Of a DNA stretch of 64,000 nucleotides, positions 6,313 to 62,248 are shown piece by piece (position 1 is the first letter of the stretch; each line of letters opens with the position of its first letter). A model generated the notes under the pieces. The model worked only from the letters and a program-made list of their open reading frames with translations, searched no databases and was not told where the DNA came from. This stretch comes from Erythrobacter sp. BLCC-B19 (GTDB lineage Bacteria; Pseudomonadota; Alphaproteobacteria; Sphingomonadales; Sphingomonadaceae): contig NZ_CP117516.1 of the NCBI RefSeq assembly GCF_028621955.1, positions 2,998,001 to 3,062,000 on the forward strand, in the 5' to 3' direction. The translations under genes and the position numbers were made by a program.

Positions 6313-7695
<1,383 letters not shown>

Positions 7696-7741
7696 CAGGC
7701 AGGTCCTTGGGTTGCGGGATCACGGGAGAGCGAAAGCTGCC

Positions 7742-9970
7742 TCATAGCGGGCCGCCTTCGACGGGGATGGGGTTGCGGGCAAAGCGCAAGGTCACGGCCG
7801 TGCCGCCACTTGGCGCGCTGGCGAAGCTCATGTTGCCGCCATGCTCATCGACGATCTTGTTGACGATCGCGAGGCCAAGGCCGGTGCCTTTCTCGCGGGT
7901 GGTGACATAGGGCTGGGTCAGGCGTTCAGGATTGGCGGGCAGGCCGATGCCATTGTCCTCGATGGTGACCGTGATTGCCTCACCGGCATCGCGCATGGTG
8001 ACGGCGATTCCCCCGGCAAAGGCGCCCTTGGCCTCGGCTGCGCGGGCCTCGACAGCTTCGACCGCATTCTTGAGCACGTTGGTCATGGCCTGACCGAACT
8101 GGTGGCGATCGCAGCGCACTTCGCGGTCAATGAGCTCGGAGGAGGCGACGCTGAAGGCGATGCCGGAATGCGCGACTTCCTGCAGGAACACTGCCTGTCG
8201 GACGAGATCAAGCGCGTCTTCATCGCGGAACACGGGCTTGGGCAGCCGCGCGAAGCTGGAGAACTCGTCGACCATCTTGCGCAGGTCGCCGACCTGCCGG
8301 ACGATGGTGTTGGTGAGGTCGTCGAACAGCTCGCGGTCATCATCGCCCACCTGCGTGCGGTAACGTCGCTTGAGGCGTTCTGTCGCGAGCTGGATCGGTG
8401 TAAGCGGGTTTTTGATCTCGTGTGCGATGCGGCGCGCGACATCCGACCAGGCGGCCTGGCGCTGGTCGAGCAGCTGGCGGGTGATGTCTTCAAAGGTAAT
8501 CACGTGCCCGCCGTCGGTGCCGGGTGCGACCTTGACCGCGAGGGTCAGGATCTCCGCTCCCTTGGCGTGGGTGATGATCGCCCGCTCCTTGCCCTCGCCG
8601 ATCACCCGCGCCAGATCGGGCGAGAGCTGACCCAGCGCCTGCCCGGTCAGGCTTGCCTCGCCATCGGGTGTCAGCAGCGCCTGCGCCGAGGAGTTCATCA
8701 AGGTGACGTGTCGCTCGGCATCGACAGACACGACCCCGGCGGTGACGGATTCGAGCACGGCTTCGGTGAAGGCGCGGCGATCGTCGATCTGGCGGTTGGC
8801 GCTGACGAGCGCCTGGGTCTGCTTGTCGAGCTGGGCGGTCATGCGATTGAACGCACGGTTCAGAAGGCCGATCTCGTCCGCCCCGGTGCGCCCCTCCAGA
8901 CGCAGCGCGAAGTTGCCCTGCCCGACCTTGCGCGCCGCCCCCACCAGCGCCGTCAATGGCTCGACCTGCCGGTCGGCAAAGCGCAGACCGAACCAGATCG
9001 CGACACTCACCAGCAGCAGGCTGACCGCGACCAGCGCAAGGTTGAAGCGCAGTTGCAGCGCGCGGGCGCTACCGGTCAGCCGGTCATAGGCCGTGACGAT
9101 CGACTGCGCCTTTGACCAGGAGTTGAACATCGTCTCTTCGGTGGTGCGCGCATTGTAGAGATAGACGCCCGATTGCGCGTCGATCGGCACCAGCGCCTCG
9201 ATCCGCTCGGGCCCGCCGACGACAACCGCCAACTCGCCGCGGTCGAGCCGGGGCAGCGCATTGCGGCTGAACTCCAGCGGGCTGGTGTCACGCGGCAGGT
9301 TGAGCGCGGCAGCGGTGCGGAACGAGCCATCCGCCATGCGCTGGAGGATCGCGCTTTCGGAAATCTCGCGGGCCTGCACCTGATAGGCATAGAAATCGGG
9401 GAAATCGGGATCCGTGATCGGCACCCGCGCCAGCGTGTCGCGCATATCGGTCGCCATCGTGACGGTGTTCTGTTCGACGTCGCGCTGGTTGGCGTCGTAA
9501 TAGTTCTGCGCGAGCGCGTTGGCGTTCTCCATCAGCCCGCGCGATTCGTCGGAAAACCAGAAGTCGACCCCGGTCTGGAACAGGAAGGCGGCAAAGGCGG
9601 CGACCAGCAGCGTCGGCAGGGCCGCGACCATCGAGAAGAAGAACACGAGCCTGACGTGCAACCGCGCCGTGCTCCCCGCCGCGCGGCGCAGCGCAAGGCG
9701 GCGTCCGATCAGCACCAGCAGCGCCATCGCTGGCACCAGCGTTGCCATCAGCAGGATCGAGACCTGCATGGTCGGCAGCAGGTCATCAGGCGCACTGGAG
9801 CGCGAAAAGGCCGACCACGTCGCGCCGACCGCTGCAAGCAGCGCGACCACTGCCGCCCCCTCCAGCCACAGAAATACATTGGCGCGCCGGGCGGCGATCA
9901 GGAACCGGCGCCACCAGCGCGGTGGCTGACGGGTCGGGATGCTCGGCGCTGAGGGCGGGAGTTGCTCCAT
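7742..9970 (-). CDS. ntrY: Sensor histidine kinase NtrY
   Basis: Membrane sensor kinase partnered with NtrX, 742 aa from ATG 9970. Three to four N-terminal TM segments flank a periplasmic region (about residues 120-290). A further TM near 300-320 leads to HAMP, PAS (TAGVVSVDAERHV) and the kinase core. The phospho-acceptor is in RIAHEIKNPLTPIQ, the N box in NVLKNAVEAV, with G boxes DNGIGLP and GTGLGLAIV. The catalytic core is intact. An ATG 57 bp further upstream is open but would add an unlike, Cys/His-rich leader lacking a ribosome-binding site. An inverted repeat at 9986-10017 lies just before the start and may be an operator. Confidence 0.95.
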   Translation of the reverse strand: MEQLPPSAPSIPTRQPPRWWRRFLIAARRANVFLWLEGAAVVALLAAVGATWSAFSRSSAPDDLLPTMQVSILLMATLVPAMALLVLIGRRLALRRAAGSTARLHVRLVFFFSMVAALPTLLVAAFAAFLFQTGVDFWFSDESRGLMENANALAQNYYDANQRDVEQNTVTMATDMRDTLARVPITDPDFPDFYAYQVQAREISESAILQRMADGSFRTAAALNLPRDTSPLEFSRNALPRLDRGELAVVVGGPERIEALVPIDAQSGVYLYNARTTEETMFNSWSKAQSIVTAYDRLTGSARALQLRFNLALVAVSLLLVSVAIWFGLRFADRQVEPLTALVGAARKVGQGNFALRLEGRTGADEIGLLNRAFNRMTAQLDKQTQALVSANRQIDDRRAFTEAVLESVTAGVVSVDAERHVTLMNSSAQALLTPDGEASLTGQALGQLSPDLARVIGEGKERAIITHAKGAEILTLAVKVAPGTDGGHVITFEDITRQLLDQRQAAWSDVARRIAHEIKNPLTPIQLATERLKRRYRTQVGDDDRELFDDLTNTIVRQVGDLRKMVDEFSSFARLPKPVFRDEDALDLVRQAVFLQEVAHSGIAFSVASSELIDREVRCDRHQFGQAMTNVLKNAVEAVEARAAEAKGAFAGGIAVTMRDAGEAITVTIEDNGIGLPANPERLTQPYVTTREKGTGLGLAIVNKIVDEHGGNMSFASAPSGGTAVTLRFARNPIPVEGGPL

Positions 9971-54102: not shown

Positions 54103-55389
54103 TTGGCAGACAAGACGGCGAAACTCGAACTCGGGGGCAAGACCTTCGAATATCCGGTGCTCGAAGGCAGCACCGGCCCCGATGTGATCGACATCCGCAA
54201 GCTCTACGCGCAGACGGGGGCGTTCACCTTCGACCCGGGCTTCACCTCGACCGCCAGCTGCGAAAGCGCGCTGACCTACATCGATGGTGACGAGGGCGTG
54301 CTGCTGCACCGCGGCTATCCGATCGGCCAGCTGGCCGAACATTCCAGCTTTATGGAAGTCAGCTACCTGCTGCTCAACGGCGAACTGCCGAGCAAGGACG
54401 AGCTCGACAAGTTCACCTACACCATCACTCGCCACACCATGCTGCACGAGCAGCTGATGACCTTCTATCGGGGCTTCCGCCGCGATGCGCACCCGATGGC
54501 GGTGATGTGCGGCGTGGTCGGCGCGCTGTCGGCGTTCTATCACGACAGCACCGACATCGCCGATCCGACCCAGCGCATGATCGCCTCGCACCGGCTGATC
54601 GCCAAGATGCCGACGATTGCGGCGATGGCCTACAAGTATTCGGTCGGCCAGCCCTTCATGTATCCGGACAACCGCCTGTCCTACACCGGCAATTTCCTGC
54701 GCATGACCTTCGGCGTTCCGGCCGAGGAATATGAGGTGATCCCGGCGGTCGAGCGCGCGATGGACCGGATCTTCATCCTCCACGCCGATCACGAACAGAA
54801 CGCCTCGACATCGACCGTGCGTCTGGCGGGCTCTTCGGGCGCGAACCCGTTTGCGTGCATCGCGGCCGGCATCGCCTGCCTGTGGGGCCCGGCGCATGGC
54901 GGCGCGAATGAAGCGGCGCTCAATATGCTCAAGGAAATCGGCACGCCCGACAAAATCCCGCACTATATCGAGCGCGCCAAGGACAAGAACGATCCGTTCC
55001 GCCTGATGGGCTTCGGTCACCGGGTCTACAAGAACTACGACCCGCGCGCGACGGTGATGCAGAAGACCGTGCGCGAAGTGTTCGATGCGCTGAAGGTCAC
55101 CGATCCGCTGTTCGAAACCGCGTTGCGGCTTGAGGAAATCGCGCTCAGCGATCCCTACTTCATCGAGAAGAAGCTGTTCCCCAACGTCGACTTCTATTCG
55201 GGCATCATCCTTTCGGCGATCGGTTTCCCGACCACGATGTTCACCGCGCTGTTTGCCCTCGCCCGCACCGTGGGCTGGGTGGCGCAGTGGAACGAGATGA
55301 TCAGCGATCCCGGCCAGAAGATCGGGCGTCCGCGCCAGCTCTACACCGGCCCGACGGAGCGCGATTACATCCCGCTCGACAAGCGCTGA
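54103..55389 (+). CDS. gltA: Citrate synthase
   Basis: Condenses acetyl-CoA and oxaloacetate in the TCA cycle, 428 aa, hexameric type II. Catalytic residues are in [16 protein letters not shown] (His), [10 protein letters not shown] (His), and [12 protein letters not shown] (His, Arg), and the Asp in PNVDFYSG. It starts at TTG 54103 with AGGAGA 7 bp upstream. A small membrane gene follows at 55404. Confidence 0.97.
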
Positions 55390-55595: not shown

Positions 55596-57002
55596 TCAAT
55601 GCGCCGGAAGTTCGAGCCGGAACAACGCCCCGCCGCCGGGTGCCGCGCTGACGGTGAGGCTCCCTTCCATCGCCTCGGCTAGACGGCGCGAGATATAGAG
55701 GCCAAGGCCTGATCCCCCGTCACGACCACCGTCACTGTCACGGCCGAGACGTTCGCCCTTGTCGAAGATGCGGGTGGCCTGTTCGGGGGTAATGCCCGGC
55801 CCCTCGTCGGCGACCGTGAGAGCCACCCGCCCCTCACCGGCCGCAAGCGCGGTGATCGTCACCGTGCTTGCGGCCGGGGCGTAGGCAATGGCGTTGCCGA
55901 TCAGGTTGATGAGGATTTGCAGCACGCGCCGGAATTCCGCCGTCGCCACCGCCGCGCCGCGCTCGCCTTCGACCACCAGCACGGTGTCGCGGTTCTGCGC
56001 GCGCACCCCGAGGATCCCCGCTGCCCGGCGCGCCGCATCGGCGAGATCGACGGGCTCCCTCGCCGTCGAGAAGCCCGGCGTTTCGACCACTTCGAGATCG
56101 GCAAGATCGTCCAGCATGGCGGCAAGATGCTGCCCGGCGCTGGCGATCGTGCCCGCGTATTCGCTGTATTCATCACGCAGCGGGCCGGCGAGGCGGGCGC
56201 GGATGCTTTCGGCATTGGCAATGATCCGCGCGACCGGCTGGCGCAGCACCGGGGTCAGCGCTGTGCCGACGAGGCGCGAGGGGAGAGCCTCGGGCGCCGC
56301 GCTGTCGGCCTGGTCGGCCACCGTTTCGCCGAGCGGCTCTTCGGCGATCAGCAGCAGTTCGAACCCCGCAGGGTTTTGCGCATCGGGGCCGAGCGGGATC
56401 AGGCGCACCCGCCAATTGCGGGCCGACCCGGCAAAGCGGCACGTGGCTCCGTCGAGCAGCCGCCAGTGGAGCGGCTGATGATGGCTGACGCCGGTCAATT
56501 CGACCAGCGTGCTCCAGGTCGTGCCGGGGGCTTCGGTGGCAGCCTTCTGCAATTCGGCAGCATCGGGCGCGAGTGCGCTCAGCACCTGCAAGCGCTGGCG
56601 TGCGTCGAGCCGGGCACTGACTTCCGCGGTGGCGCGGTCGATGGCATCGATCTTTTCCGCGAACTCGCGCGCGCTGGGCGGCGTCAGCGGGCTGCGTTGC
56701 CAGTTCTCGACCAGCACCTCGCAGCCGCCGCCTTCGCCCTCCGCAAGGGGGTGAATGCGCGCAAAGCCGGAAACTTCAGCATCGCCATCAAATGCGGAAA
56801 AGCTGCGCGCGATCTTGAGGCCCATCGCCCGCGCCTGCTGCACCAATGCCAGCAGTTCAGGGATCGCGAGCGTGCCCGGCAGGTCGCCCCCGCAGCGCTC
56901 CTGCAACTCGGCGAGCGGCGCATCCGCGCTCAGAAGCCGGTCGCGCGCATCCGTGAGGCCATAGGCGCCGAGCAGGCTGTCGGTGTGATCCATCGCGTTC
57001 AT
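55596..57002 (-). CDS. Histidine-kinase-like protein lacking the phospho-acceptor His
   Basis: A 468-aa soluble protein. Residues 1-110 and 150-225 look like PAS-type sensor regions (IARSFSAFDGDAEVSG; LTGVSHHQPLHWRLL). The dimerisation helix region at 250-300 is TPVLRQPVARIIANAE: LRQP matches LRTP of histidine kinases, but the catalytic His position (251) is Pro. The only His nearby (292) lies in the second helix. The ATPase domain is intact: NLIGNA N box at 366-371, DEGPGI at 399-404, and GGSGLGLYIS at 429-438. It may bind ATP and act as a scaffold or regulator, as DivL does. ATGA overlap with the preceding gene. Confidence 0.88.
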   Translation of the reverse strand: MNAMDHTDSLLGAYGLTDARDRLLSADAPLAELQERCGGDLPGTLAIPELLALVQQARAMGLKIARSFSAFDGDAEVSGFARIHPLAEGEGGGCEVLVENWQRSPLTPPSAREFAEKIDAIDRATAEVSARLDARQRLQVLSALAPDAAELQKAATEAPGTTWSTLVELTGVSHHQPLHWRLLDGATCRFAGSARNWRVRLIPLGPDAQNPAGFELLLIAEEPLGETVADQADSAAPEALPSRLVGTALTPVLRQPVARIIANAESIRARLAGPLRDEYSEYAGTIASAGQHLAAMLDDLADLEVVETPGFSTAREPVDLADAARRAAGILGVRAQNRDTVLVVEGERGAAVATAEFRRVLQILINLIGNAIAYAPAASTVTITALAAGEGRVALTVADEGPGITPEQATRIFDKGERLGRDSDGGRDGGSGLGLYISRRLAEAMEGSLTVSAAPGGGALFRLELPAH

Positions 57003-57943
57003 CGCCCGCCACCGCTGCCCGCCAGCAGCGCCTCGGCCTGCGCGGGGGCAATTTCGGCGAGCCCGCGCGGCGGACGTCCGTTCGGATCGGCGAGCATCAC
57101 CTGCCGCTCCGCCGCCCGGCCATCGACGCCGCCTGCCCGCAACAGCAATGCGAGCCGCAGTCCCTGCCCATCAAGGCAGGCGAGCACGACACCGGCGCGC
57201 GGCTGGCGTGTCGCGGCTGCGAGTGCGCTGGCGAACAGCGCAACCCCGGCATGGTCCAGACCCAGCGCCGCCACCGCGCCCCGGCGCATCGCTGCGACGA
57301 GCCGTGCCAGCAGGCCAAGCCGCCCCGCCGCCTCGTCGTAACCGGCCTGCAAGCGCGTCGCGGCCTCGCTATCGCCCATCTGACTCTGCACGCCCGCCAG
57401 CAGGCGATGGAACAGTTCGGCGGGAAGTTCGGCGAGCGGCAATTCCATGCGCCGCTGGCTTTGCACGAAGCGCGATTGCCCTGCGAGTGTCGCCATGGCG
57501 AGGCTGGCAATGGCGGGGTCTTCTGCCGCGATCAGTTCCTGGAGCAAGGGGCTCAGCACCGGATCGACCGCGTGGCGCGTTTGCAGGCGTTCGGCAATCA
57601 GGCTCTCGGCGGCAAGTGCATGGCAATGGGCGAGCAGGGCTTCGTCGGCCATCAGCTGCTCGGCCAGCGGATCGAGCACGGATGCCTCGATCGAATGGGC
57701 GGGCAACCTTATGGCCGGATCGCTGCCCGCCCGCAGCGCCAGCAATTGTGCCGCAAGGTCGTGGATCATGCCGCGCACCCGGGCGAGCACCGCGTCGCTG
57801 ACCAGCGCCTGCGCTTCGCTGCTCAGCAGGTGGCGCAAGACCGGGACGACCGCCGTCAGCGCACGGGTTTCCCGCGCGAGCTCCTCTGTGAGGATCGCCT
57901 CGACAGCAGCGTCGGCGGCCAGGTCCATCGTCTTTTCGCCCAT
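56999..57943 (-). CDS. Helical protein of unknown function
   Basis: A 314-residue, Ala/Leu-rich all-helical protein; I do not recognise a family, though a distant DUF2336-like helical fold is possible. A long central region (AEQLMADEALLAHCHALAAES, LFHRLLAGVQSQM) alternates with amphipathic helices. ATG 57943 is used; ATG 57928 or GTG 57964 are alternatives. No TM or catalytic motif is seen. Its end overlaps the kinase-like gene's ATG, so translation is coupled and the two proteins probably act together. Confidence 0.7.
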   Translation of the reverse strand: MGEKTMDLAADAAVEAILTEELARETRALTAVVPVLRHLLSSEAQALVSDAVLARVRGMIHDLAAQLLALRAGSDPAIRLPAHSIEASVLDPLAEQLMADEALLAHCHALAAESLIAERLQTRHAVDPVLSPLLQELIAAEDPAIASLAMATLAGQSRFVQSQRRMELPLAELPAELFHRLLAGVQSQMGDSEAATRLQAGYDEAAGRLGLLARLVAAMRRGAVAALGLDHAGVALFASALAAATRQPRAGVVLACLDGQGLRLALLLRAGGVDGRAAERQVMLADPNGRPPRGLAEIAPAQAEALLAGSGGGR

Positions 57944-57984
57944 CCTTGCGAGGGTTACCCCCACATAGTTAAGACCGCGTTAGA

Positions 57985-59190
57985 TCAAGTCTTGCGTCCG
58001 CGCAGCAGCAAAGCTGTCAATAGCCCCAAGGCGAGACAGGCCAGCGCTTCAGGCAACAGGTCAAAGGCAGAGGCAAGCGCAAGCACCAGGAGCCAGGAAG
58101 CGCGGTCTGCGGCAGGGCGGGCGAGCGCCTCACCCTCGCTGCGCGCGGCCAGAACGGCCAAACCGACAGTGACCGGGCCAAGCACGGCAAGCGGCTGCCA
58201 ACTCGGCCACGGCGCAAGCGCAAACCACAGCAGGAGCGCGGTGAGGAGGTCGCTCACCGCGCCCAGCATCTCCGCGCCGGTGGCGGTGCTGGGTTTGACA
58301 ATTTCCAGCAAGCGCCGGGCAAGCGCCGCATGGGCCTGCGCCACCCGCAGACCAAGGGTGCCCAGCCCTGCCAGCAGCAGCCCTGCGGCAGGCGGGCCGA
58401 ACGCAGCCGTCATCACGCCGGTCAACAGGAGCGCCAGCCCGATCCCGCCCGCCACCAGCCCGCCCTGCCCCTGACCGCGCTGCGCAAGCGCACGGGCCAG
58501 CAGACCGGCGAGCAGCTCCATCGGAGCGCGCCAGTCGCGTGGTGGGGCGGCGCTGGCGATCAGCGCTTCCCCGGCCGCCGCGACCCGGTCGCCGTCATCG
58601 GCCAAGATCCAGCGCTGATCCAGGGGTTCGTGCGCTGCAAGGTCGCGTAGGGGTGTCCCGCTTTGCAAGGCAAGCCGCAGCAGCAGGGACACGGCATCGG
58701 CATCGGCTGGGAAATCCGCAAGCTGCTGCACCGGCGCGCCGCGCATCGCAAGGACTCCGGCCCAATTGCGGCTCGCATCGATCCGTTCGAAATCCTCCGG
58801 GAAGGCCGCGGCAAGGGGATGGTCGGCCGGAAATGCCGCAACCATGCGACGCAAGGCGCTCTCGCTGGTGAACATCCCGCGCACGATCTCGGCATCGGGC
58901 ACCAAGCCGTCGGCGATGATGAAGAGATCATCCTCGGCGCGCACCAGAGCAGGCAGCGCCGCAAAGCCGGTCAAGGCATGGAAGGCCGCGCCGCTACCCT
59001 CGATGCTGTGCTGGAGCGCGAGGATTTCGGCCGAATGGGTCGCAGTCAGGCAGACCACCCGCTCGACGCCGAGCGATTGCAGCAGCGCACCTTGCCACGC
59101 CAGCACGCTGCGCCCCGCAAGCGGCAAAGACGCGCGCAGGCTCCCCTCGCGATCTGTCTTCAGCGCAGCGATCAGGCCAACGCGCATCAT
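57985..59190 (-). CDS. Membrane protein with nucleotidyltransferase-like N-terminus
   Basis: A 401-aa protein. Residues 1-200 resemble the GT-A nucleotidyltransferase fold (IAALKTDREGSLRASLPLAGRSV, LLQSLGVERVVCLT, DDLFIIADGLVPD), but the G-rich signature loop and both metal Asp residues are weak. Residues 225-395 hold six or so TM segments (GGIGLALLLTGVMTAAFGP and others) with no CDP-alcohol phosphotransferase motif. The domain pairing recalls fused NTase/CDP-OH-P enzymes that have decayed, but the function is not shown. ATG 59190 is a clear start. It lies between the HPt-like and helical protein genes in the same direction. Confidence 0.75.
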   Translation of the reverse strand: MMRVGLIAALKTDREGSLRASLPLAGRSVLAWQGALLQSLGVERVVCLTATHSAEILALQHSIEGSGAAFHALTGFAALPALVRAEDDLFIIADGLVPDAEIVRGMFTSESALRRMVAAFPADHPLAAAFPEDFERIDASRNWAGVLAMRGAPVQQLADFPADADAVSLLLRLALQSGTPLRDLAAHEPLDQRWILADDGDRVAAAGEALIASAAPPRDWRAPMELLAGLLARALAQRGQGQGGLVAGGIGLALLLTGVMTAAFGPPAAGLLLAGLGTLGLRVAQAHAALARRLLEIVKPSTATGAEMLGAVSDLLTALLLWFALAPWPSWQPLAVLGPVTVGLAVLAARSEGEALARPAADRASWLLVLALASAFDLLPEALACLALGLLTALLLRGRKT

Positions 59191-59288
59191 TACCCCCTCG
59201 GCATTGCGGCCGCGAGGGTGACGCGTTCAGAGCATGGGTTCAAGCCGCAGTTGAAAGATTACCCCGCCCATCGGCGAGGCGATGGCTG

Positions 59289-59624
59289 TCAGCGACGGGC
59301 GTCGCGGCGCAGGTCAGCGGTCTGTGCGCGGCTGAAGCGGGCGAGAACGCCCTCGACCTCGCGGATCGCCATAGGCTCGCCTGGTGCGGCGTGAAGCGCG
59401 ATTTCCGCAGCTTGCAGCAGGTCTTCGGCATTGAAGCTCGCCGCCAGCCCCTTCAGCCGCATCGCCGCAACGTGCCAATTGCCGTCGCAGCGCGCCCGCT
59501 TGAGCAGGTCAAGCTGCCGCATCGCGCTTTCGATGAAGGCCGCACGCAACTCGCGCAGCAGCGCGGCATCATCGCCGGCCGCTGCCGCCAGGGTTGCATC
59601 AAGGGCGCCATGATTGAATGCCAT
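59289..59624 (-). CDS. HPt-like protein without the phosphorylated His
   Basis: A 111-residue four-helix protein with the HPt signature altered: HVAAMRLKGLAASFNAEDL, in which the active-site His of the (A)HxLKG motif is Met 55. His 51, one turn earlier, is the only nearby His. ATG 59624 is used because the longer frame upstream includes the promoter area of the divergent gene. It is first of the four-gene minus-strand group, 98 bp ahead of the next. It may be a structural or dominant-negative HPt partner. Confidence 0.78.
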   Translation of the reverse strand: MAFNHGALDATLAAAAGDDAALLRELRAAFIESAMRQLDLLKRARCDGNWHVAAMRLKGLAASFNAEDLLQAAEIALHAAPGEPMAIREVEGVLARFSRAQTADLRRDARR

Positions 59625-59683
59625 GCTCCCGCGAATACGCGCGATTGGGTTAATGCGGGGTTTATCCACAACGGCGGTGTGGT

Positions 59684-62248
59684 ATGAAAGCGCCCATGAC
59701 AGGACGGCACCAGATGCGCGCCTTGGGGCGCAGCGGCGGCGAAAGCGGCTCGGGGGATACGACACTTCCGGAGGTCGGCGGGCAGGCTCTTGCGGGGGAA
59801 GAGACGCTCGACCTTGCTGAAAGCTGGGCTGAGGACGAGGCCCATGCTGGCGATCATCCGGGCGGCTCGCACAGGCTTATGGCGGTGCTGGCCATTCTGG
59901 TTACTGCCGCATGGAGCGGGTTCTTCGTCTGGGCCAATTGGGCGCAAATGCTGGCGGGCGCCGCGCCTGCGCAATGGGCGAGCTGGGTGGTCAGCTGGGC
60001 GGTGCCGGTCGCGCTGGTGGGGATCGGCTGGCTGCTGGCGATGCGTTCCTCGCAGGCCGAAGCGGTGCGCTTTGCCAATACTGCCGCTTTGATGAACCGA
60101 GAGAGCGCCGCGCTTGAAGCCCGGCTCAAGGTGGTCAACCGCGAGCTCAGTCTGGCGCGCGAGTTTCTTGCCGCCCAAGCGCGTGATCTTGAAGCACTGG
60201 GCCGCATTGCGGCAGAGCGGCTGGGTGCCCATGCGGGTGAATTGCAGGCGCTTATTGCCAGCAACGGCGCACAGGTCGAAGCCATCAGCACCACGAGTGA
60301 GACCGCGCTCGGCAATATGAACCGCCTGCGCGATGATCTGCCCGTGATTGCGAACGCGGCTCGCGACGTGGCCAACCAGATCGGTGCGGCAGGGCGCACC
60401 GCCGAGGATCAGCTCGGCAAGCTTACCGGCGGCATGACCGCGCTGGGCGAAGCAGGCAACAGCAGCGAAGCGCAGGTTGCGCGCCTGACTGCGCAGGTGG
60501 GCGATGCCCTGGGCCAGTTCGAAACGCAGGTCGCACGGGTCGAAGCGCTCGTGACCCAGCGGTTTGCCGCCTTGCAGAACGAAGCGGAGGCCTATCGCGA
60601 ACGCATTGCCGCACTCGAAAGCGAAGCACTCAGCGCGCAAGCCGGACGGGTGGAGGATATTCGCGCGCAGGCAAACACCATCGCCGACAGCCTGCACGCC
60701 GCAACCACGCAGGCGCAAACCGATTTCGCGGCAACCATCACCGCCTTGCACGAGGCGATGACGGAAAAGCTCCAGCTGGTCGACCAGCTTGACCGCAGCA
60801 CGCAGGCCGCAAGTGCGCAGCGCCTCGCCGATCTGCGCGATGCCGCGCAGCAGATAGACAGCCAGATCGAGGCGCGCGGCAGCCGCTTTGAAGAGCTGAT
60901 CCAGCAGCGCCAGGCCGCCTTCGAGACGACCGAAGCGCAGGCCAGCGAAGTCTTGGCGCAGCGGCTCGCCGCGCTCGATGATGCGCTGGCGCAGCGGCGC
61001 GAGGCGCAGATGGCCGAGATTGAAAAGCTGGTGGCGCTTGGTGATGCGCTCGGCGAACAGGCGGCCGAGCTCGAACGCGCGATCGCGGCCATCAGCCAGT
61101 CCGGTGAGGCCACCCGCTCGACGCTTGGCGAAGGCCTGAACGCCCTCATGCAGCAGCTCGCCGACAAGCGTGTGGCACTTGCCGCGACCGAGGCGCAGCT
61201 GGTGCAGCTCACCGACAGCAGCGTGCGGATGCTCGAAATCCTGCAATCGGGCACCCGCACCTGCCGTGAGAATCTGACGACCGCGATCAGCGCGGCCAAC
61301 GGGGCGCTCGAAGGGGTCGAGGCCCGCGCCGACAAGGTCGAAGCGCTGATGCTGCGGAGCACGCAGGCAGGCAGCGACCTGTCCGACTATCTGCTCAAGA
61401 CCCGTAGCGAAATCGACGCGGCTGAAGTCGCGATTGCCGGGTTCAAGTCGCATCTTGCGGAGGAGACCGAGGACGCCCTCGCCCGGCTTCAGGGGCTGCG
61501 CGGCGGCTTTGCGCGACTGGCAGAGGAAAGCGGCGCGCTGGCGAACGCCAGTCAGAACACGCTGCGCGCGGCGCTCGGCACGCTCGAAGAGGCCATCGCG
61601 CAGGCCTTCGCCACGCTCGATCAGGGTGCGCGCGAGCGGTTGCTGGCGCTGGCTGGCAGTATCGGGGCCGACGCCGTCGGCGTGCTTGAACGTGCGCTGC
61701 GCACCGAGGCGGCTTCCACGCTCGGCAAGCTTGAACAATCCGCGGCACACGCCGCCGGGGTCGGGCGCGAGGCGGCAATTCAGCTGCGCGATCAGCTGGT
61801 CAAGGTGAACGAACTTACCGGAAATCTCGAACAGCGCGTCACTCGTGCGCGCGAACTGGCTGAAGAGCAGGTCAATAATGACTTTGCGCGGCGGATGGCG
61901 CTGATCACCGACAGCCTCAATTCTGCGGCTATCGACATCACCGCAGGCCTCTCAACCGAGGTCGCCGACACAGCGTGGGACGCCTATCTCAAGGGCGACC
62001 GCGGCATCTTCACCCGCCGCGCGGTGCGCCTTATCGACAATGGCACCGCCAAGGATATCGCCACGCTCTACAGCGCCGACGAGACGTTCAAGGCCAATGT
62101 CAGCCGCTACATCCACGATTTCGAGGCACTGCTGCGGCAGACGCTCTCGACCCGCGATGGCCACGTGCTGAGCGTGACGATGCTGGGATCGGACATGGGC
62201 AAGCTCTACGTCGCTCTCGCGCAGGCAATCCAGCGGTTCCGCACCTAG
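59684..62248 (+). CDS. Large two-TM coiled-coil protein, TipN-like architecture
   Basis: An 854-aa protein. Residues 1-62 are a cytoplasmic, acidic head. Two TM helices follow (about 65-86 and 98-118). From 125 to about 770 it is a nearly unbroken coiled coil rich in Ala, Glu, Gln and Arg. A conserved-looking globular end (780-854) has TAWDAYLKGDRGIFTRRAVRLID and LGSDMGKLYVALAQAIQRF. The shape is like Caulobacter TipN, the new-pole marker, but sequence identity was not checked. Start ATG 59684 is used (59696 and 59714 possible). It faces the HPt-like gene across 59 bp. Confidence 0.82.
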   Translation: MKAPMTGRHQMRALGRSGGESGSGDTTLPEVGGQALAGEETLDLAESWAEDEAHAGDHPGGSHRLMAVLAILVTAAWSGFFVWANWAQMLAGAAPAQWASWVVSWAVPVALVGIGWLLAMRSSQAEAVRFANTAALMNRESAALEARLKVVNRELSLAREFLAAQARDLEALGRIAAERLGAHAGELQALIASNGAQVEAISTTSETALGNMNRLRDDLPVIANAARDVANQIGAAGRTAEDQLGKLTGGMTALGEAGNSSEAQVARLTAQVGDALGQFETQVARVEALVTQRFAALQNEAEAYRERIAALESEALSAQAGRVEDIRAQANTIADSLHAATTQAQTDFAATITALHEAMTEKLQLVDQLDRSTQAASAQRLADLRDAAQQIDSQIEARGSRFEELIQQRQAAFETTEAQASEVLAQRLAALDDALAQRREAQMAEIEKLVALGDALGEQAAELERAIAAISQSGEATRSTLGEGLNALMQQLADKRVALAATEAQLVQLTDSSVRMLEILQSGTRTCRENLTTAISAANGALEGVEARADKVEALMLRSTQAGSDLSDYLLKTRSEIDAAEVAIAGFKSHLAEETEDALARLQGLRGGFARLAEESGALANASQNTLRAALGTLEEAIAQAFATLDQGARERLLALAGSIGADAVGVLERALRTEAASTLGKLEQSAAHAAGVGREAAIQLRDQLVKVNELTGNLEQRVTRARELAEEQVNNDFARRMALITDSLNSAAIDITAGLSTEVADTAWDAYLKGDRGIFTRRAVRLIDNGTAKDIATLYSADETFKANVSRYIHDFEALLRQTLSTRDGHVLSVTMLGSDMGKLYVALAQAIQRFRT

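Follow-up and report, generated by a model that had tools for sequence, protein, structure and literature searches.

Signalling proteins that keep the fold of a phosphotransfer component but lack its phosphorylated histidine have been described. AHP6 of Arabidopsis, a histidine phosphotransfer protein (HPt) without the histidine, blocks phosphotransfer in the plant cytokinin pathway. DivL of Caulobacter is a PAS-HisKA-HATPase protein without phospho-His in the CtrA field, and offers a precedent for a kinase fold that senses a phosphorylated receiver (PMC4211667). The Sphingomonadales are reported to have kept CckA-ChpT-CtrA, whereas their DivJ-PleC-DivK system is described as lost or degraded (PMC2877005). 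Here we analysed a 64,000-nucleotide stretch of Erythrobacter sp. BLCC-B19 (NZ_CP117516.1, positions 2,998,001 to 3,062,000; hereafter the window), in which four minus-strand genes, hpt, ntp, hel and kin, run from 59624 down to 55596 between a divergent TipN-like gene and a convergent citrate synthase gene. Both the HPt encoded by hpt and the histidine kinase encoded by kin lack their phospho-accepting His. We consider it an even call that the locus encodes a conserved, binding-only, non-phosphorylating signalling module of this sphingomonad GTDB family, in which a pseudo-kinase gated by nucleotide and a pseudo-HPt that binds receivers act in a CtrA and TipN context. Given the loss of the working residues, the retention of the genes by selection, the cell-pole neighbour and the cell-cycle-type boxes, signalling probably proceeds by binding and shape change and not by phosphate transfer. 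The module may act as a scaffold or allosterically.

Each ingredient has a precedent, DivL for the kinase and AHP6 for the HPt. The hpt protein shares the missing His with AHP6, but is bacterial, linked to a TipN-like gene and preceded by a CtrA-type box. Single pseudo-histidine kinases are already known; here a fixed pseudo-HPt, a fixed pseudo-kinase and an apparently dead membrane enzyme share one neighbourhood with apparent CtrA switches. No prior description of such a module was found among the titles and opening abstract lines listed from open-licence PMC papers, a search that does not prove its absence. If the reading is right, a whole set of phosphorelay parts can be reused in a circuit that works only by binding. 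The module is also a concrete candidate, open to test, for a circuit that took the place of DivJ-PleC-DivK in the Sphingomonadales or outlasted it (PMC2877005).

The phospho-accepting sites of the HPt and the kinase

The hpt gene (59289..59624, minus strand) encodes 111 amino acids, with Met55 (codon 59462-59460) instead of the phospho-His and the R-L-K-G motif retained. The kin gene (55596..57002, minus strand) encodes 468 amino acids, with Pro251 (codon 56252-56250) at the H-box His. An initial annotation of this DNA had reported Met and Pro at these two sites and an intact kinase ATP site, and our alignments agree on all three. Its coordinates and motifs were also correct, as was the ATGA overlap that joins the hel and kin frames.

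The predicted structure of the hpt protein is a helical bundle of the HPt fold. At the sequence level, 19 of 38 HPt members matched PF01627 at E<=1 (best 1.9e-5), and the Pfam scan returned no PF01627 match to the window's own protein. Inside the clade, His was found at the phospho-His site in 0/143 rows. The residues there, in an alignment of 145 rows (126 non-identical), were M 106, L 20, W 8, Q 3, G 2, A 2, Y 1 and R 1, and only the outgroup rows L133 and L134 had His; this alignment and that of the kinase include near-duplicates from the same genomes. The best 120 of 5027 database matches had M (105) or L (15) at the site and His in none. In a separate listing by HPt similarity, the nearest record with a name was E. 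donghaensis, with 95% HPt identity. The surrounding columns were conserved, with the two outgroup rows included: W at -5 (W50) in 145/145 rows, R+1 in 142/145, K+3 in 131/145 and G+4 in 134/145. The family therefore retains the Lys+3 and Gly+4 of the HxLKG motif.

A His at +10 occurs in 109 of the 143 rows, and phosphate might be accepted there instead. We regard this as very hard to credit, since the window has Asn at +10, 34/143 rows have His at neither position, and in the structural model +10 is predicted to lie between helices 47-63 and 67-78 and not mid-helix.

The degenerate HisKA or dimerization and histidine phosphotransfer (DHp) domain of kin lies at 56073..56270 (minus strand; Pfam HisKA match, residues 253-304). 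The H-box His was present in 0/152 in-clade rows, one of which is a gap (L227, a broken frame). Among 155 rows (139 non-identical), the site held P 124, R 7, G 5, S 3, Q 3, D 3, N 2, E 2, A 1 and K 1, and only L185, L186 and L187 had His. R+3 was found in 146/152 rows and P+5, with outgroups included, in 154/154. Since the site itself accepts ten residue types while R+3 and P+5 are nearly or fully fixed, it is not a disguised acceptor. A second conserved DHp His (H292) occurs in the pseudo-kinases and also in the His-bearing L185-L187, and for that reason we take it as structural. No conserved substitute His was found within the clade in either alignment. Aligning homologues was the check that the initial annotation had proposed, and relatives that keep the His, or a true His elsewhere, would have spoken against it; inside the clade we found neither. 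In addition, among 129 loci with both hpt and kin, His was present in neither protein of any pair.

The DHp positions +8, +11 and +12 are A, G and F in the His-bearing L185-L187. In the pseudo-kinase rows they are Arg (144/152), Ala (145/152) and Asn (139/152). Positions +11 and +12 match the docking residues Gly561 and Tyr562 of DivL (PMC4211667). We read these changes, from the alignment, as a putatively rewired docking face.

The HATPase_c domain of kin (55602..55931, minus strand; residues 358-467) matched its model at E 4.6e-26, and its N, G1 and G2 boxes are intact. The N-box Asn, the G1 Asp and the first G1 Gly were each found in 151/151 rows, the second G1 Gly in 150/151, and the G2 glycines in 150/151, 151/151 and 151/151. 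Such a nearly invariant ATP site is what would be expected if the pseudo-kinase were enzymatic in trans, its catalytic and ATP-binding (CA) domain phosphorylating the DHp His of another kinase in a heterodimer or hydrolysing ATP to drive a cycle. That an intact CA domain could do so counts against a purely binding role. However, an allosteric nucleotide sensor predicts equal conservation of the ATP site, no DHp partner gene lies among the conserved neighbours, and the F-box Phe has become Gly in 12/151 rows, including the window. We therefore consider catalysis in trans improbable. The F-box in the window reads DKGERLG, and Phe is kept in 134 rows.

DivL carries Tyr at the H-box, unlike kin, and its docking residues differ. 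A separate Tyr-bearing, DivL-like pseudo-kinase is encoded in the same genome (L309:1504-3639, SYEFRTPL), with DivL (4q20) as its best PDB match (E 1e-27). Given this separate gene and the absence of Tyr from the kin H-box, kin was ruled out as the DivL orthologue of the genome. As for kinases of the DivJ/PleC/PdhS type, L185-L187 partially match the DivJ and PdhS models, among many kinase models and below the curated cut-offs, and kin differs from such kinases by the lost His and the apparently rewritten DHp face; a kinase of this type is a candidate ancestor. The N-terminal part of kin is PAS-like in relatives, PAS_4 scoring above the cut-off in L102 and below it in L116. The inverse degeneration was also seen, at L107:2187-3830, L106:1875-3533, L108:7850-9484 and L117:1696-3333. 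The HisKA proteins encoded there keep the His (HELRSPLNAISGFAQ or HELRTPLNAISGFAQ), and on visual inspection their ATP lobe appears degenerate.

Ancestry and selection

In a single FastTree tree of the DHp-CA region, rooted by us and presented without support values, all pseudo-kinases formed one clade beside the His-bearing L185, L186 and L187. These relatives come from G088, the only genome sampled of its genus in the same GTDB family, and from two other families. Because they lie just outside the clade, the loss of His is derived. G088 also has a His-bearing HPt divergently adjoining its TipN-like gene. Among 28 TipN loci of the class sample, one of which is cut before its upstream region, at least four (L210 and L215, from one genus, L216 and L217) have an opposite-strand, His-bearing HPt-like frame within about 1.2 kb, with an intervening frame in all four; counts at these loci are lower bounds, from the best four rows per locus plus a motif scan. 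In G117, of another family of the order, a His-bearing HPt-like frame lies 0.36 kb from the TipN-like gene (L212). The HPts of L210, L217 and G117 score above the Pfam threshold for Hpt. With His-bearing TipN-linked HPts and His-bearing kinases both present in outgroups, both proteins come from working parts: the module goes back to two canonical proteins, a histidine kinase and a TipN-linked HPt, each of which has lost its phospho-accepting His. With relatives that keep the His at hand, residue swaps can put the change to a direct test. At the G117 locus, two HPt-like frames stand in tandem beside the TipN-like gene (L212:6395-6919 and 7528-7911), with His in both.

All four genes, hpt, ntp, hel and kin, are under purifying selection. 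The median ratios of nonsynonymous to synonymous substitution (dN/dS; NG86 method), taken over 1965 to 2391 non-independent pairs, were 0.116 for hpt, 0.214 for kin, 0.283 for hel and 0.376 for ntp, with gltA (0.099) and tipN (0.279) as yardsticks; for the module genes, dS has a median of 1.2 to 1.4, which makes these values rough and weakens the case for the module to that extent. The proteins might instead be decaying remnants of a lost phosphorelay. Several genes have been lost in some lineages, ntp evolves fastest of the four, the kin match in G118 has an internal stop and some other kin matches are shortened. Against this, the dN/dS of hpt and kin is low, the ATP site is nearly invariant, columns such as HPt W50 do not vary, the boxes described below are conserved and kin is present in 103/113 family genomes. 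Decay is accordingly a very improbable explanation.

Gene linkage and CtrA-type boxes

We found hel in 37 of 61 genomes, comprising 37/37 of the same genus and 0/24 of other families. Thirty of these 37 genus loci, picked for having hel, were fetched wide. All 30 have the order tipN, hpt, hel, kin, gltA, so that the proposed linkage to a divergent TipN-shaped gene is conserved, and ntp is present in 27 and missing in three. The best 80 of 444 named loci by HPt similarity gave 66 with exactly tipN-hpt-ntp-hel-kin-gltA, three without ntp and 11 incomplete or with split matches, for which contig ends and broken frames are the expected cause. Profile matches among 196 genomes of the order numbered 77 for HPt, 57 for hel and 185 for kin (E<=1e-6). 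Among the matches listed, those of kin outside the window's GTDB family were partial (about residues 93-307) and reached 1.6e-20 at best, and are thus generic.

Within the family, 73 of 113 genomes have both HPt (E<1e-10) and kin (E<=1e-40 plus three split matches), one HPt only, 30 kin only and nine neither. The initial annotation had suggested checking the co-occurrence of all four genes; HPt and kin occur together in most of these genomes, but the counts do not support them as obligate partners. Six genomes carry hpt-tipN (L101, L105, L106, L107, L108, L117) and kin (L176, L177, L171, L172, L173, L178, respectively) at separate loci, and HPt stays beside the TipN-like gene. L136 has no space for HPt, since tipN and ntp overlap there when read as stop-to-stop frames.

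Potential CtrA sites were located with the pattern TTAA-N7-TTAAC, allowing one mismatch; the consensus comes from another species (PMC7200025). The window contains only two such boxes, each with one mismatch and in gene orientation: TAAACCCCGCATTAAC (59649..59664, minus strand), upstream of hpt in the gap to the divergent TipN-like gene, and CTAACGCGGTCTTAAC (57968..57983, minus strand), upstream of hel-kin. The number expected in the window was 0.35, and two were reached by 7/100 shuffles. In the 100-base upstream regions of the relatives, boxes were found before hpt in 98/127 and before hel in 81/81 (rows with a start matching the model), and before ntp in 1/127, kin in 0/130 and gltA in 0/117. 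Base shuffles of these regions gave 0.1 to 1.0 boxes (hpt 1.0, hel 0.5). Across 171 partly overlapping loci (2.47 Mb), 383 strand-wise sites were distributed as 115 before hpt, 120 before hel, 10 before tipN, four before kin, one before ntp and 133 elsewhere. Across the whole genome, 44 strand-wise matches were listed, several of which count a single place once on each strand, versus 147 for a reversed control pattern.

Most of the family retains the hel box. A further 28 family loci were listed by their kin start, and 21 of them have room for hel. In 18 of these 21, a box in forward orientation stands some 0.95-1.2 kb ahead of kin; L112 has a box on the other strand only, and L113 and L118 have none there. 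In the seven without room, a box lies directly before kin in L115, L174, L175, L182 and L190, and none does in L183 and L184. The hpt box is strong around Erythrobacter (30/30 genus loci and 73/79 named loci) and often a half-site beyond it. Two boxes suggest two transcription units, so that the single operon proposed initially was not borne out; the motif pattern indicates that the hpt and hel-kin regions are probably separate units.

This arrangement also fits two independent stories, the principal rival to a joint module: the pseudo-HPt would be a TipN accessory and hel-kin a separate CtrA-type unit, a neighbour by vertical synteny with no physical contact between the proteins. Each unit has its own box, six genomes keep HPt beside the TipN-like gene and kin elsewhere, and HPt is missing in 30/103 kin-bearing family genomes, which leaves the pairing unproven. 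Within the 12 and 10.6 kb fetched, kin was not matched at L133 and L134, whose TipN-linked HPts bear the His. Moreover, gltA and rnj are conserved neighbours as well, and plain vertical synteny could explain the gene order. On the other hand, kin is missing in only 1/74 genomes with HPt versus 9/39 without (Fisher p 2.6e-4, phylogeny uncorrected). G088 is the sole family genome in the sample whose HPt bears the His, and its kinase relative bears it too; the two losses could thus map to the same node, on one genome and with orthology unproven. We hold two unconnected stories to be a serious but minority possibility. Together with these splits and absences, further points weigh against a CtrA-controlled joint module. 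In 33 wider family loci the hpt upstream region has a full-strength box in 10, a TTAAC half-site in 25 and neither in eight. The upstream rows are related and not independent, and CtrA binding is suggested by the motif. Loss of CtrA is reported to do no harm to the growth of Sphingomonas melonis (PMC8116508), so that a box alone gives no reason to expect a vital cell-cycle role.

Mode of action and the other genes of the locus

The ntp gene (57985..59190, minus strand) is optional and encodes an NTP_transf_3-like N-terminal domain followed by a CDP-alcohol-phosphotransferase-like C-terminal membrane domain. Its profile matched PDB 4mnd, a fusion of CTP:inositol-1-P cytidylyltransferase and CDP-alcohol phosphotransferase, at E 6.2e-6 across the domain junction, and other nucleotidyltransferases far more weakly; NTP_transf_3 was matched by 7/35 members at E<=1 (best 7.3e-4). 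Unlike that enzyme, ntp shows neither catalytic signature: the glycine-rich NTP loop and the Asp/Gly signature of CDP-alcohol phosphotransferases were seen by eye in 0/35 aligned members, some of which begin past the loop. The description of ntp as a nucleotidyltransferase-like membrane protein thus holds for the fold, but had overlooked the missing motifs. From its sequence, ntp looks like a third dead enzyme.

In the joint module that we favour, CtrA would produce both units within its programme. The pseudo-HPt would bind receiver domains through its retained RLKG face and accept no phosphate, in the manner of AHP6. The genome has 38 receiver matches. The pseudo-kinase would be a nucleotide-controlled conformational switch, its DHp serving as docking site for a partner by analogy with DivL and DivK~P. 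With TipN and the membrane-bound pseudo-transferase, these proteins would assemble at the pole or membrane or close to it, and the module would act by sequestering or licensing a receiver protein instead of by phosphotransfer. Partner, place and output are steps that we infer from sequence. The most specific form of the proposal, a CtrA-driven pseudo-phosphorelay in which kinase, phosphotransfer protein and membrane enzyme are all non-catalytic, kept family-wide and devoted to nucleotide-gated receiver capture at the TipN pole, is put forward only tentatively.

The module sits between the TipN-like gene and the citrate synthase gene. The divergent neighbour (59684..62248, plus strand) encodes 854 amino acids with hydrophobic N-terminal segments, a long coiled coil and a conserved C-terminal domain. 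From its architecture, it is a candidate TipN. The likeness to the polar coiled-coil proteins TipN and GPR lies in the N-terminal hydrophobic segments and the coiled coil. An Apolipoprotein model gave a weak match (0.0012), far under its cut-off, and the C-terminal domain (61829-62248) was found in 70/190 class genomes, in frames that differ greatly in length. GPR and TipN have been called analogous polar proteins (PMC13170164).

The gene convergent with kin (54103..55389, plus strand), which we take from its sequence to be the citrate synthase gene gltA, is syntenic and was not counted as part of the module. In Caulobacter, the citrate synthase CitA emerged as a CtrA and G1-S regulator from a genetic selection with a tipN mutant (PMC7083601). 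Given the convergent orientation of gltA, a link of the module to this role is possibly a coincidence. The remaining gene, hel (56999..57964, minus strand), encodes an all-helical protein of 321 amino acids, and 9/26 of its relatives weakly match the putative helix-turn-helix model HTH_68 (best 0.0033).

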